DNA from: a virus
DNA: 36,009 nucleotides
IMG/VR virus record: IMGVR_UViG_3300034073_001492
Span: 1-36,009 of that record
Direction: 5' to 3' (one strand)
Below are positions 31,916 through 35,876 of this stretch, piece by piece (within the stretch, counting starts at the first letter, position 1; each line of letters begins with the position of its first letter). A program made the translations under genes and the position numbers. Under the pieces are notes generated by a model, which saw only the letters and a list, made by a program, of their open reading frames with translations, had not been told where the DNA came from and did not search any database.

Positions 31916-32153
31916 GTCGCCGTGGTTTCGCGTCAAGGGTGAGCGGTACACGATAGTCTGCACGGCTGGCGACGTTCACACCTTAGTACGCGACCTTGAC
32001 GGTGAGCGGTTTAATGTTGATCACGACGCTCTTATAGAAAGAATAAACGCTAATTTAGACACTTATGAGTTATTGGACATATCCGGGGCAGCCGTACAAG
32101 GTGCAGGCGGCCACGATTCGATGGCGGTCAAAGCCCGAAAAGGTAGGGCGTAG
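31887..32153 (+). CDS. Small hypothetical protein, 88 aa
   Basis: The product is beta-rich in its first half (SPWFRVKGERYTIVCTAGD) and then a short helical segment followed by a basic tail. I chose the ATG at 31887, preceded by GGAGG at good spacing, over an in-frame ATG at 31809 that would read the zinc-ribbon gene out of frame. No family recognised. Confidence 0.6.
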   Translation: MKNGSVNAIKSPWFRVKGERYTIVCTAGDVHTLVRDLDGERFNVDHDALIERINANLDTYELLDISGAAVQGAGGHDSMAVKARKGRA

Positions 32154-32166
32154 GCGGCCTTTAGGA

Positions 32167-32454
32167 ATGATATTAGAAGCCGTTTCCATCGGCACGAATA
32201 TCCCGGTAACGATCATAACCAGTCGCGACCGCCACGGGTATATCGTTGACGCTCGGCAGATGTATTTTTACCTTGCTGTTAAAGACGGCTGGACGCTGGA
32301 GGCGACGGGTGATTTTATCGGCCTAAACCACGCTACGGTGTTAAGCGGCAAGCGCAAGGTTGAAAACGCGCTGGAGGTGCGGGATACGCGAATAACGGCC
32401 TATCACCGGGCGGCGGTTGAGGTATTAAATCAGATGAGTGATGAAACGCGATAG
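32167..32454 (+). CDS. DnaA domain IV-like DNA-binding protein
   Basis: The 95-residue product matches the C-terminal DNA-binding domain of DnaA, with R-x-x-(G)YIVDARQMYFYL, then FIGLNHATVLSGKRKVEN in place of the (R/G)RDHSTVLH signature. It lacks the AAA+ domain and so is a stand-alone DnaA-box reader. It may direct replication proteins to an origin or regulate transcription. I chose ATG 32167, 13 bases after the previous stop; an in-frame start at 32065 would overlap that gene by 89 bases. Confidence 0.7.
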   Translation: MILEAVSIGTNIPVTIITSRDRHGYIVDARQMYFYLAVKDGWTLEATGDFIGLNHATVLSGKRKVENALEVRDTRITAYHRAAVEVLNQMSDETR

Positions 32455-33280
32455 GATACCTGACATAGCCCAATGCACGGTCAACAGCGTGTCCGGCGGC
32501 AAAACATCTGCATATATGGCGGCTAATCACCACGCCGATGTAAACATATTCGCCATTGTGTGCATAGAGGCTGAATACTGCCGCCCATCTGACAAATCAT
32601 TGGTGCAGTATGTTTCTGATAAATTAGGTCGCGATTTTATTGCGACTGCGGAAAGCGACAAGACCCTATATGTTGTCAGGGATTTAGAACAACTCATAGG
32701 CAAGCCTATAACATGGGTGGCAGGAGAAACATTTGAATCAGTTATACGCAAGAAGAAAGCCCTTCCAAATCAGATGTGGCGGTTCTGCACGACGGAAATG
32801 AAGATGAGGCCGATATTTGAATACTGCCATAGCAATTACGGAATGGTTTCAATGAACATAGGTTTTCGTTACGACGAATCAGAGCGCGCGAATAAAGAAA
32901 ATACATCCTTCAAGACCGTAATTGGTCAGCACGAATCGGGGCGTAACAAGTGGGATGACATAGAATGGCGAACTTTACATTACCCGTTAATTGACAATAA
33001 GGTCACGCATTATCAAGTATCGGAATGGGCGAAGAAAACAGGGCTTCCGTTCCCGGCAGATTCAAATTGCGTGGGGTGTTTTTGGAAACCATTTCAGCAG
33101 ATCAGAAAGAACTGGGACGACGAGCCGCAAAAGATGCGATGGTTTTCTGAGCAGGAGAAAAAAATGCGACGGAGGTTTAAGAAGGAGATGGACTACGCGA
33201 CAGCCAAAAAGATAGGGTTGCAGATTGATTTTTTCTTTGGCACAGGTTCAGGGTGTCAGGCCGGATATTGCACGGACTAA
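32441..33280 (+). CDS. PAPS-reductase family (N-type ATP pyrophosphatase) protein
   Basis: The 279-residue protein has the PP-loop SVSGGKTS (about 16 to 23), WVAGETFESVIRKKKALPNQMWRFCT and a C-terminal Cys set CVGC...GCQAGYC that could bind a metal or iron-sulphur cluster. The family adenylates substrates to activate sulphate or thiol transfer; some phage and DndC-like members act in nucleic acid modification. It overlaps the DnaA-like gene by 14 bases. An 18-bp direct repeat flanks its start and its end. The substrate is unknown; assimilatory sulphate reduction is unlikely in isolation. Confidence 0.75.
   Translation: MKRDRIPDIAQCTVNSVSGGKTSAYMAANHHADVNIFAIVCIEAEYCRPSDKSLVQYVSDKLGRDFIATAESDKTLYVVRDLEQLIGKPITWVAGETFESVIRKKKALPNQMWRFCTTEMKMRPIFEYCHSNYGMVSMNIGFRYDESERANKENTSFKTVIGQHESGRNKWDDIEWRTLHYPLIDNKVTHYQVSEWAKKTGLPFPADSNCVGCFWKPFQQIRKNWDDEPQKMRWFSEQEKKMRRRFKKEMDYATAKKIGLQIDFFFGTGSGCQAGYCTD
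32461..32478 (+). repeat. 18-bp direct repeat, copy 1
   Basis: TGACATAGCCCAATGCAC occurs here, in codons 7 to 13 of the PAPS-reductase-family gene (DIAQCTV), and again at 33297 to 33314 just after the gene ends. After it the two copies differ at one base and then share GT. Confidence 0.9.
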
Positions 33281-33296: not shown

Positions 33297-33314
33297 TGAC
33301 ATAGCCCAATGCAC
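33297..33314 (+). repeat. 18-bp direct repeat, copy 2
   Basis: Exact copy of 32461 to 32478. It lies in a short open frame beginning at the ATG at 33280 (MKEKLLDIAQCTV), coupled as TAATG to the stop of the preceding gene; identity to the first gene stops soon after the repeat. This looks like the start of a duplicated gene whose remainder has been lost. Confidence 0.9.
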
Positions 33315-33330
33315 AGTTATTCCCGCGCTG

Positions 33331-33653: not shown

Positions 33654-33686
33654 CGGGTAAACGCTGTTATGTGCAGTTTATACCCG
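33654..33686. repeat. Left edge inverted repeat of the cassette block
   Basis: CGGGTAAAC (33654 to 33662) and GTTTATACCCG (33676 to 33686) form an imperfect palindrome. The middle contains AAACGCTGTTATGTGCAG, which resembles the right end of the cassette repeats (AAACCGCTGTTACCTGC at 35119). It may be the left border or a decayed recombination site. Confidence 0.45.
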
Positions 33687-33716
33687 ATAAGGTATGATAT
33701 GTTATTCAAATAAATT

Positions 33717-33850
33717 GCAGGTAACGTTCCACGTATTGCCGAAGGCGGGGCATTAAACCGCAAATGTTTAATTGAAAAACTAAAGTTGAATGACAGATAA
33801 AGTTGAATTGAAAAACGTCACCCCCGCTTTTGGCAATACGGTGTACCAGC
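33717..33850. repeat. attC-like palindrome E1
   Basis: Outer boxes GCAGGTAACG (33717 to 33726) and TACCAGC (33844 to 33850). Inner arms 33732 to 33750 and 33821 to 33840 match 17 of 19 positions (CGTATTGCC...GCGGGG). The left side has extra unpaired bases between outer and inner arms, giving a bulge, and the middle is an A/T-rich loop of 70 bases. Confidence 0.75.
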
Positions 33851-33851
33851 A

Positions 33852-34523
33852 GTGCCTTCTTCGGAGGTTTACAATGAGGATTGTGTAGAGGCTTTAAAAC
33901 GCTTTGACGATAATTACTTTGATTTAGCAGTTGTTGACCCGCCTTATGGAATAGATATGTCGCAAGAATTATTTAAGCGTGGGCAAACTTGCAAAAAAAA
34001 CGGATACAAAGAACACTTGAATAAAGACTGGGATAAACAAGTTCCCGAACAAGATTATTTTGATGAATTGTTTAGGGTTAGCAAAAATCAAATCGTTTTT
34101 GGGGCAAACTATATGACTAAATATTTACCTGAAAGTATGGGTTGGATTGTTTGGAATAAAGTTCAAAGAGGATATTCTTTTGCCGATGGTGAATTAGCTT
34201 GGACGAGCTTTAAAAAAGCGTTGCGAATATTTGATTATGCAAGAGGAAATGAAAGTGGATTTGCCCCAAAACTAAAAGGAACTGAAAGGGCTGGAATAAA
34301 CATACATCCAACACAAAAACCTATTGCTTTGTATGATTGGATTTTTGCAAATTATTCAGAGCGTGGGCAAATAATTCTTGACACTCATTTAGGTAGTGGA
34401 AGTTCAAGAATTGCAGCAAATAAGGCGGGTTTAAACTTTATAGGATTTGAAGTAGATGAAGACTACTATGAAAGACAAGAAAAGCGTTATCAAACCTTTA
34501 TTAGTCAGTTGCGAATGTTCTGA
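33852..34523 (+). CDS. DNA methyltransferase, beta-class (cassette 1)
   Basis: The 223-residue protein has catalytic motif IV DPPYGI (29 to 34) before the AdoMet-binding motif ILDTHLGSGSSRIAA (175 to 189), the beta order of N6-adenine or N4-cytosine methyltransferases, with HPTQKP (about 152 to 157) between. There is no long target-recognition insert and no adjacent endonuclease, so it is an orphan enzyme that could protect phage DNA from restriction. It starts at a GTG right after the right end of repeat E1. Composition is AT-rich compared with the phage genes. It is a paralogue of the enzyme at 35083. Confidence 0.85.
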   Translation: MPSSEVYNEDCVEALKRFDDNYFDLAVVDPPYGIDMSQELFKRGQTCKKNGYKEHLNKDWDKQVPEQDYFDELFRVSKNQIVFGANYMTKYLPESMGWIVWNKVQRGYSFADGELAWTSFKKALRIFDYARGNESGFAPKLKGTERAGINIHPTQKPIALYDWIFANYSERGQIILDTHLGSGSSRIAANKAGLNFIGFEVDEDYYERQEKRYQTFISQLRMF

Positions 34524-34536
34524 TGGAACGTCCACA

Positions 34537-34684
34537 GGCATTGCACCTAACGGTTTGCAGCCTTGTTTAGTGCGGGCTTAATAGCACTATATTTGATTTG
34601 AAAACTAAAACTTAATAAAATGGAAAAACTTTCTTTCGGAGACGAAAACCCCGCATTGAACAAGGGTGCTGTTACCAGCAGTGC
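34537..34684. repeat. attC-like palindrome E2
   Basis: Left GGCATTGCACCTAAC (34537 to 34551) pairs with the complement of the right TGTTACCAGCAGTGCC; inner arms GCAGCCTTG (34557 to 34565) and CAAGGGTGC (34661 to 34669) pair with one mismatch. The loop includes a TAGTGC/GCACTA hairpin (34568 to 34589) and a promoter box. The right half lies inside the next coding sequence. Confidence 0.7.
34588..34595 (+). promoter_or_regulatory. TATATTTG -7 box within E2
   Basis: TAnnTTTG 24 bases before the ATG at 34620, in the loop of the palindrome, so each cassette may carry its own promoter. Confidence 0.45.
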
Positions 34685-34991
34685 CTTGTCGGATATGATG
34701 GCACAAATTACTAAGAACTTTGCAGAGGCAGAGGAAAATGTAATTAAAGAAGTATTGAGACAAATACTAAAACGTGAACCAACTTTAGAAGATGCAAAAG
34801 ACTTGCATAAATTTCAAAAAGAAGGTGAATTTGATAAATACTATTTGGCTTATAAAAATCTAAAGTTGGGTACTATTTACCGAAATACAAATATAGAAGG
34901 TGGCAAAATGGGAGTTGAATTTGTGCCATTTGAAATGAAAGACTTTTTAGAACCTGCAACTAATTCAGATGGAACTAAGGTTACGTTCTGA
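34620..34991 (+). CDS. Unknown protein of cassette 2
   Basis: The 123-residue product is helical in its middle (KNFAEAEENVIKEVLRQILKREPTLEDAKDLHKF) and ends in a beta segment with VEFVPFEM. No family is recognised. The first 22 or so residues (through VTSSAL) are encoded by the loop and right half of repeat E2; a pair of ATG codons at 34695 and 34698 could start a shorter form. Flanked by two methyltransferase cassettes, it might be an accessory, but that is only context. Confidence 0.65.
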   Translation: MEKLSFGDENPALNKGAVTSSALSDMMAQITKNFAEAEENVIKEVLRQILKREPTLEDAKDLHKFQKEGEFDKYYLAYKNLKLGTIYRNTNIEGGKMGVEFVPFEMKDFLEPATNSDGTKVTF

Positions 34992-35140
34992 GGCATTGCT
35001 GGTAACGTTTTCGGGCTTTGCGTTCGTTGGGGATTACCAGCACTAAAGCCGATTAGGAGTACGAACTTAAATTTTAGCACAAATGATTATAGAAAGCAAT
35101 ACACCCCCCAATGACGCAAAACCGCTGTTACCTGCTGGTG
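34992..35140. repeat. attC-like palindrome E3
   Basis: Left GCTGGTAAC (34998 to 35006) matches the complement of the right GTTACCTGC (35127 to 35135) at 8 of 9 positions. Inner arms CGGGCTTTGCGTTCGTTGGGG (35012 to 35032) and its partner at 35106 to 35125 match at most positions. As in E1 and E2, the left side has about four extra bases between outer and inner arms. The loop holds the start codon of the next gene. Confidence 0.75.
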
Positions 35141-35814
35141 CGGTTTCAAAGGACGGGATTTCATTGATACACGGAGATAGTTTGCAAGCCTTAAAAAGCT
35201 ATGGCGATAATTATTTTGATGTAGCAATAGTTGACCCACCTTACGGAATAAACCACAGCGAAATAGCGGGCAAGCAAAGCGGCACAAAATACGGTAATGC
35301 TGCTGCTGCAAAAAGACAATACACCGTAAAAGATTGGGATAAGCAAATACCACCACCAGAGTATTTTGTGGAGCTTTTCAGAGTATCTAAAAATCAAATT
35401 GTGTGGGGAGCAAATTATATGACAGAGCATTTGCCACCAAGTATGGGTTGGGTGTTTTGGGATAAAGATAATGGCACAAATGGTTTTTCAGATGGCGAAC
35501 TTGCTTTTAAATCATTTGACAAAGGATTGAGAAAAGTAAAGATAACTTGGAACGGGATGATACAGTATGATATGAAAAACAAAGAGGATAGAATACACCC
35601 AACCCAAAAGCCAATACAACTTTACAAATGGTTACTTGAAAACTATACGAGCGAAGGCGATTTGATTTTAGATACTCATTTGGGAAGTGGGAGTATAGCC
35701 ATAGCTTGTCATTATATGAAACGAAAATTAATAGGATACGAAATTGATGCAGAGTATTTCCAAAAGGCTTGCAAACGATTTGAAGAACAAACTCGTCAAA
35801 CAGCACTATGGTAG
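35083..35814 (+). CDS. DNA methyltransferase, beta-class (cassette 3)
   Basis: The 243-residue protein is a clear paralogue of the enzyme at 33852: DPPYGI (51 to 56), KDWDKQ, ELFRVSKNQIVWGANYMT, HPTQKP and LILDTHLGSGSIAIA. It has the beta-class motif order and lacks a restriction partner. About 24 N-terminal residues precede the conserved start and come from the loop and right half of repeat E3. The two enzymes differ between DPPYGI and KDWDKQ (here NAAAAKRQYTVKDWDKQ), a segment that may set target specificity. AT-rich; probably acquired as a cassette. Confidence 0.85.
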   Translation: MIIESNTPPNDAKPLLPAGAVSKDGISLIHGDSLQALKSYGDNYFDVAIVDPPYGINHSEIAGKQSGTKYGNAAAAKRQYTVKDWDKQIPPPEYFVELFRVSKNQIVWGANYMTEHLPPSMGWVFWDKDNGTNGFSDGELAFKSFDKGLRKVKITWNGMIQYDMKNKEDRIHPTQKPIQLYKWLLENYTSEGDLILDTHLGSGSIAIACHYMKRKLIGYEIDAEYFQKACKRFEEQTRQTALW

Positions 35815-35819
35815 CACTT

Positions 35820-35863
35820 GCAGGTAACTGGGGGCTTGTGGCGTATTTATAGCGTTTAGCCCC
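35820..35863. repeat. Partial attC-like element E4 at the right edge
   Basis: Left box GCAGGTAAC (35820 to 35828) repeats the E1/E3 left ends, and GGGGCT (35831 to 35836) pairs with AGCCCC (35858 to 35863). No GTTACC right box follows, so it is truncated, decayed or the last site of the array. Confidence 0.5.
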
Positions 35864-35876
35864 GAATTTCAATAAC

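Follow-up and report, generated by a model that had tools for sequence, protein, structure and literature searches.

The three-gene array in the window, the whole 36,009-nucleotide stretch of viral DNA that was analyzed, is best read as a set of mobile cassettes belonging to an integron-like system of Bacteroidota. The cassettes would move by tyrosine recombination at G^TTA, with a candidate recombinase (here called int) acting in trans. We put the probability of this reading at roughly 85%. The system appears to be widespread in Bacteroidia and largely unrecognized, and the phage seems to carry its cassettes. No description of it was found in the open-access literature; subscription papers and preprints were outside the scope of that search.

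The phage array

The IMG/VR virus record that supplied the window is a tailed phage, with PHROG matches to terminase, portal, major head protein, and tape measure. Between 33.66 and 35.83 kb it carries two genes for orphan N6/N4 DNA methyltransferases and one for a 123-aa unknown, with palindromes between the three. An earlier note on this DNA had reported three palindromes separating three genes at 33.7 to 35.8 kb, and all are present in the sequence. All parts of the array are given for the + strand. It opens with the remnant of an upstream element (33655 to 33677, read from the sequence), in which a decayed element end (about 33655 to 33668, right end ..CGCTGTTA) comes with its 12-nt box, ATGTGCAGTTTA; this agrees at 9/12 positions with the trailing box ahead of the first hairpin, taken as reverse complement. 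Positions 33666 to 33725 form a mini-cassette without a gene, with lead GTTATGTGCAGT and trail ATTGCAGGTAAC, whose own ends match at 9/12 positions.

Three attC-like hairpins follow, each ahead of one gene. E1 (33718 to 33849; 90.8 bits under the family covariance model R1, described below) precedes gene 1 (33852 to 34523), an orphan N6/N4 DNA methyltransferase (Pfam PF01555, E value 7e-16). The start of gene 1 is uncertain: the frame is open from 33807, without an ATG ahead of the GTG at 33852. E2 (34544 to 34678; 95.9 bits) precedes gene 2 (34620 to 34991), whose 123-aa product, of unknown function, had zero matches in Pfam, PHROG, and NCBIfam. E3 (34999 to 35134; 94.4 bits) precedes gene 3 (35083 to 35814), the other orphan N6/N4 DNA methyltransferase (PF01555, E value 5.6e-21). 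Genes 2 and 3 have their ATG start codons inside the preceding element, within the loop. The array ends at 35814 to 35828 with the trailing (closing) box of cassette 3, GCACTTGCAGGTAAC, part of inverted repeat I1, and no hairpin comes after it.

E1, E2, and E3 were all in the alignment used to train R1, so their R1 scores speak for consistency and are not an independent test. Independent support came from BLAST of the region, which matched unrelated sites on two plasmids, at the elements only. Across 138 nt, E3 shares 75.7% identity with an element on a Riemerella plasmid carrying erm(F) and beta-lactamase genes, and E1 is 73% identical to a lone element on an Adhaeribacter plasmid. Folded as single-stranded DNA, E1 and E2 beat all 200 shuffles (z scores of −3.3 and −3.2), whereas the energy of E3 was unremarkable (z score of −0.2). 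The note's description of the palindromes was largely accurate, though it did not include the decayed upstream end, the mini-cassette, or the closing box. The asymmetry does fall on the same side in E1 to E3, with a left spacer of ~6 nt versus ~2 nt on the right, and the left box ends in AAC and the right box reads GTTACC or TACC, except that the right box of E1 is GTACC, one T short. The absence of an integrase was also upheld: a recombinase HMM run against all frames of the window gave zero matches, so the integrase that a complete integron would carry is not aboard.

Other features lie upstream of the array. A 280-aa protein (32438 to 33280, +) with an SGGKTS motif and cysteines resembles, by eye, PAPS reductase or ATP pyrophosphatase; it had no Pfam or NCBIfam match. 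A 21-nt direct repeat (TGACATAGCCCAATGCAC..., 95%) lies on either side of its gene, at 32461 to 32481 and 33297 to 33317. A phage protein encoded at 32065 to 32454 (+) has a DnaA C-terminal DNA-binding domain (PF08299, E value 1.4e-8).

The element family and the cassette unit

An exact 19-base left-arm pattern gave 96 matches in genome contigs, nearly all from Bacteroidota, and nearly all of these had a pairing right arm ~122 bases onward. A similar pattern gave 49 matches in viral contigs; a first viral scan with a gap of 70 to 100 had used the wrong spacing, and its 22 matches were at chance level and were discarded. Because the element seeds came from exact-pattern searches, subfamilies with other arms are undersampled. 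In an alignment of 74 sequences, 16/23 pairs change on both sides; 0/500 shuffles were as high, and all slid controls were lower. The elements therefore meet the integron definition in being imperfect palindromes with base pairing and covariation. Under R1, the covariance model built from this alignment, they form one homologous family, which bears out the earlier claim of a shared plan. Members range from 83 to 187 nt and are hairpins, not dif-like sites, and Rfam holds no family that matches them. A short-loop element (~95 nt) was seen beside the 134-nt form in viral loci L216, L220, L232, and others.

R1 found ~340 elements in the loci collected, many in head-to-tail arrays of 5 to 12 at a spacing of 0.5 to 1 kb. 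Among phages that have been isolated, Flavobacterium phage hemulen6-1 has at least four. Elements were present in 200/295 sampled Bacteroidia genomes (species), about two thirds. Only 1/229 Gammaproteobacteria had one, though 88/229 have IntI above the cut-off, so R1 is not simply a detector of classical attC. Across 252 elements, only the AAC/GTT of the boxes and the next base are conserved. RYYYAAC occurs in 6%, GTTRRRY in 5%, and both in 0%, which is chance, so the strict attC consensus is indeed unmet. The searches that the note had proposed found the family beside unrelated genes (antibiotic-modifying enzymes, GmrSD, toxins, and nucleases) and adjoining tyrosine recombinases. Palindromes that never flanked different genes, or that served as ordinary terminators for the methyltransferase genes here, would have refuted a cassette array; with many unrelated genes flanked and tyrosine recombinases adjoining, that outcome is in favor of cassettes.

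If cassettes circularize, complementarity is expected between the two ends of a cassette. An element in place, by contrast, takes its ends from neighboring cassettes, and these need not match. Among 197 cassettes, own ends were complementary over GTT plus 12 nt, whereas the ends of the same element were at the shuffled level. Match frequencies at positions 1 to 12 after GTT were.92,.89,.85,.90,.84,.83,.58,.03,.80,.81,.81, and.70, with background beyond; the near-zero value at position 8 reflects a fixed G/T mispair. Own ends matched at 6.2 to 6.6 of 8 informative positions versus 2.8 after shuffling (0/1,000 shuffles, in the viral and bacterial sets separately). In the phage array, the ends of cassette 2 match at 11/12 positions and those of cassette 3 at 10/12, versus 8 and 6 for E2 and E3 in place. 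Cassette 1 shows no excess (8/12), perhaps because its lead box is altered. As far as sequence can tell, own-end complementarity is the mark of units that would circularize and cross over at G^TT.

The limits of the unit were seen directly in a second phage. Positions 35003 to 35828 (+) are 97.0% identical (blastn) to a block of another phage contig (L222); the block starts at the TAACG of E3 and stops at GGTAAC, the flanks are unrelated between the two phages, and there is no target duplication beyond the TAAC box. The same limits recur at 73 to 74% identity in L030 and, within 7 nt, in L248. These limits define the phage unit as hairpin, downstream gene, and trailing box, so that E3, gene 3, and the closing box make up a complete mobile unit. 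A unit made of a gene and the following element (+ direction) was ruled out by this block, by the attI-like site described below, and by resistance cassettes of Empedobacter and Riemerella.

Published integration events give a further view of the unit. The resistance genes aph(3')-IVb, lnu(H), and blaRATA integrate without homology in Riemerella anatipestifer; exactly 27 bp and 140 bp came in with aph(3')-IVb, an attC-like fold was noted, no integron was nearby, and the mechanism was left open (PMC13148043). On plasmid pRCAD0416RA-1, two elements flank the aph(3') gene (262 aa), and the interval from GT^T to GT^T takes in 27 bp upstream and 140 bp downstream. The unit that integrates in R. anatipestifer is thus equal, to the base, to the predicted cassette, a correspondence between sequences only. 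On R. anatipestifer plasmids (L356 and L357) and Empedobacter plasmids (L264 and L265), family elements separate resistance genes (aph, estT, tet(X), blaOXA, erm(F), lnu(H), and arr); no int is annotated in the examined stretches of these four.

Phage and bacterial cassettes differ in gene orientation. In bacterial and plasmid cassettes, 104/107 callable genes run in the classical sense and typically start 25 to 50 bp after the box. All 70 of 70 viral cassette genes are flipped relative to the element (3/107 in bacteria), and 28/70 start inside it. Phage cassettes therefore look like a separate pool. Among 73 phage cassette proteins, 15 had N6/N4 methyltransferase domains and 6 had C5 methyltransferase domains, counts with a small bias because a few phage loci came from a methyltransferase search. 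Bacterial cargo is diverse and includes adenylyltransferases, Arr, LinB-like proteins, GmrSD, toxins, and nucleases.

The array-adjacent recombinase and its attI-like site

When 12 array-bearing genomes were searched for IntI-like proteins, none had an IntI above the cut-off. The same genomes contained a group of tyrosine recombinases of ~345 to 410 aa, several of which lay close to elements or at the end of a contig. The array-adjacent int proteins are ~345 to 385 aa long and have an extra N-terminal domain as well as SAM-like and catalytic domains, without the IntI-specific insert. A profile of six of them (A3, threshold E ≤ 1e-60) found relatives in 147/295 class-wide Bacteroidia genomes, and int and R1 elements co-occurred by genome with an odds ratio of 10 (P = 1e-16, Fisher test, uncorrected for genome kinship). 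No int match at E ≤ 1e-60 was found in 68 element-bearing genomes, which could be drafts or could have lost the gene, as in CALINs.

Location was compared at 40 of the best int loci, picked blind to elements, and at 20 XerC/XerD-type control loci from array-bearing genomes. R1 found 79 elements in the former and 0 in the latter. Of 78 tabulated elements, 76 lie on the 3′ side of int, and 76/76 of those point to int. A second int subfamily also lies beside arrays, mostly in the same geometry (read by eye from coordinates). In four of its members (G093:C7, G123:C1, G244:C2, and G258:C14; loci L465, L470, L472, and L473), it is the 5′ end of int that faces the array, which is the orientation of classical integrons. 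A search of viral contigs gave only distant relatives and no int of the array clade.

In most loci, a site reading ..NNNNTAACT and then (T/C)TTATA (AACT..TTTATA) lies ~95 to 120 bp 3′ of the int stop, between int and the array. In its common versions, the reverse complement is TATAAACAAG^TTANNNN, and the core, TATAAACAAG^TTA, resembles the attI1 core. In most of the 17 loci that allowed the test, the ends of the cassette last before this site are complementary, which indicates that the last unit ends at the attI-like site without its own hairpin on that side. Read toward the site, the elements resemble attC (TAACA...CGTTA), and the order of the array is classical. Many assemblies break ~100 bp 3′ of the int stop, which is the attI-like site (e.g., G155:C21, G095:C19, and G225:C6), and this suggests mixed populations or repeats there.

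The int clade had support of 100/99 and stood apart from IntI and Bacteroidota XerC/D (midpoint root; bootstrap not settled). The distance from box I to box II is 92 aa in int versus 133 in 24 IntI and 96 in Xer proteins, so the IntI-specific additional domain is absent from int. That domain marks IntI integrases (Messier and Roy 2001, cited in PMC9668308). Against TIGR02249, int scored 204 to 215 bits (cut-off, 265), with the alignment broken at model positions 180 to 238. It reached the cut-off of NCBIfam NF040815 ("site-specific tyrosine recombinase/integron integrase," XerA type), scoring 220 to 230 bits against 220; that model's name, however, points to archaeal XerA, with no link to cassette arrays. 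An AlphaFold model of int was poor (pLDDT, 67; pTM, 0.38), so structural comparison adds nothing, and its Foldseek matches (TM score of ~0.3) were set aside because the model cannot carry an argument about fold.

Relation to integrons and other explanations

The system shares with IntI/attI/attC integrons its arrays of mostly single-gene cassettes with one hairpin each, crossover at G^TT, complementary unit ends, and a tyrosine recombinase with an attI-like site beside it. It differs in an int that lacks the additional domain, has an extra N-terminal domain, and usually has its 3′ end toward the array, and in boxes of ~15 bp that are cassette specific, carry the fixed G/T mispair, and do not fit GTTRRRY. 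The elements behave as attC sites do and the array works like integron cassettes, yet two defining features, the IntI additional domain and GTTRRRY boxes, were tested for and not met. It is therefore classed not as a classical integron but as an integron-like Bacteroidota system with its own recombinase. This agrees with the earlier note, which had proposed a cassette array of a related but distinct kind; boxes and recombinase are both unlike those of classical integrons.

Standard integron finders detect almost none in Bacteroidetes, with one complete integron, in Salinibacter (PMC9024848). Phage CALINs have been described in 17 cases with attC/IntI models, and one attC of Polaribacter phage P12002L was recombined with attI1 by IntI1 (PMC9892861). 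Like our array, these come from Bacteroidota phages that have no integrase and carry attC-like sites between genes for DNA methyltransferases; that work does not describe the wider family, a recombinase belonging to it, or the flipped genes. That precedent, along with the general plan shared with attC, favors a true classical CALIN, whose elements IntI-type integrases would recognize, with the Bacteroidota int incidental. The methyltransferase spacers of P12002L look like short-loop family elements, although R1 scores there are weak (21 bits) and a match to the IntI1-tested site is unconfirmed. We consider this explanation unlikely in view of the near absence of R1 elements from Gammaproteobacteria rich in IntI, the lack of an IntI above the cut-off in all 12 array-bearing genomes checked, and consensus boxes at chance level only. 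Movement by host XerC/XerD, as in pdif modules and without a dedicated enzyme, has in its favor that every host has Xer proteins and that, with int missing from phages and plasmids, the enzyme must come from the host. Action by XerCD is not ruled out, but elements lie in a fixed geometry near int genes (79 at 40 genes) and not near the 20 Xer genes compared, and the sites are hairpins with cassette-specific boxes; we hold this to be quite improbable.

The unit ends are mutual inverted repeats, as they would be if the units were miniature transposons that a transposase mobilizes through 15-bp terminal inverted repeats. Such ends would be fixed rather than cassette specific, and this idea also fits poorly with head-to-tail arrays of one hairpin per unit, with a block common to two phages that lacks target duplication beyond the TAAC box, and with the adjoining tyrosine recombinase; it is very hard to sustain. 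Almost no weight remains for the palindromes being mere terminators or regulatory hairpins of phage genes. They do sit between genes, and part of the phage genes have their start codon inside an element, but unrelated genes are flanked, in opposite orientation in phages and bacteria. The complementarity joins unit ends 0.6 to 1 kb apart, a feature for which a local terminator would have no use, and together with the exact phage block it already contradicts this account.

Under the preferred reading, an integron-like cassette system, each unit would be one gene with one attC-like hairpin that circularizes and then reinserts via tyrosine recombination, with the G^TTA box as the point of crossover. 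The phage itself has no recombinase, and the best candidate is the array-adjacent int of Bacteroidota. Supplied in trans from the host chromosome, int would work on the element folded as a single strand. The role of int as the enzyme is inferred, as are strand choice and trans action on phage DNA; int might be associated with the arrays and yet not act on their elements. In bacteria, the attI-like site beside int (reverse complement TATAAACAAG^TTA...) would be the entry point for new cassettes. The phage would keep a cassette pool in which orphan DNA methyltransferases are common, plausibly as a defense against host restriction, a role that is likewise inferred, with genes that point opposite to the hairpin and often start within it.

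We also regard as likely, with distinctly more reserve than for the array itself, the broader proposal that Bacteroidota have a second, IntI-independent integron. It would have its own lineage of hairpin-reading tyrosine recombinases without the additional domain, its own extended, cassette-specific boxes, and its own attI, would be common in Bacteroidia, would contribute to the spread of resistance, and would include a separate phage pool with flipped genes. The proposal raises the question of how a recombinase without the IntI additional domain recognizes a hairpin site. If it is true, acquiring genes by cassette capture would be routine across a major phylum (200/295 sampled Bacteroidia species), the published and unexplained integration of resistance genes in Riemerella would be accounted for, and phages would gain a route for swapping anti-restriction methyltransferases.
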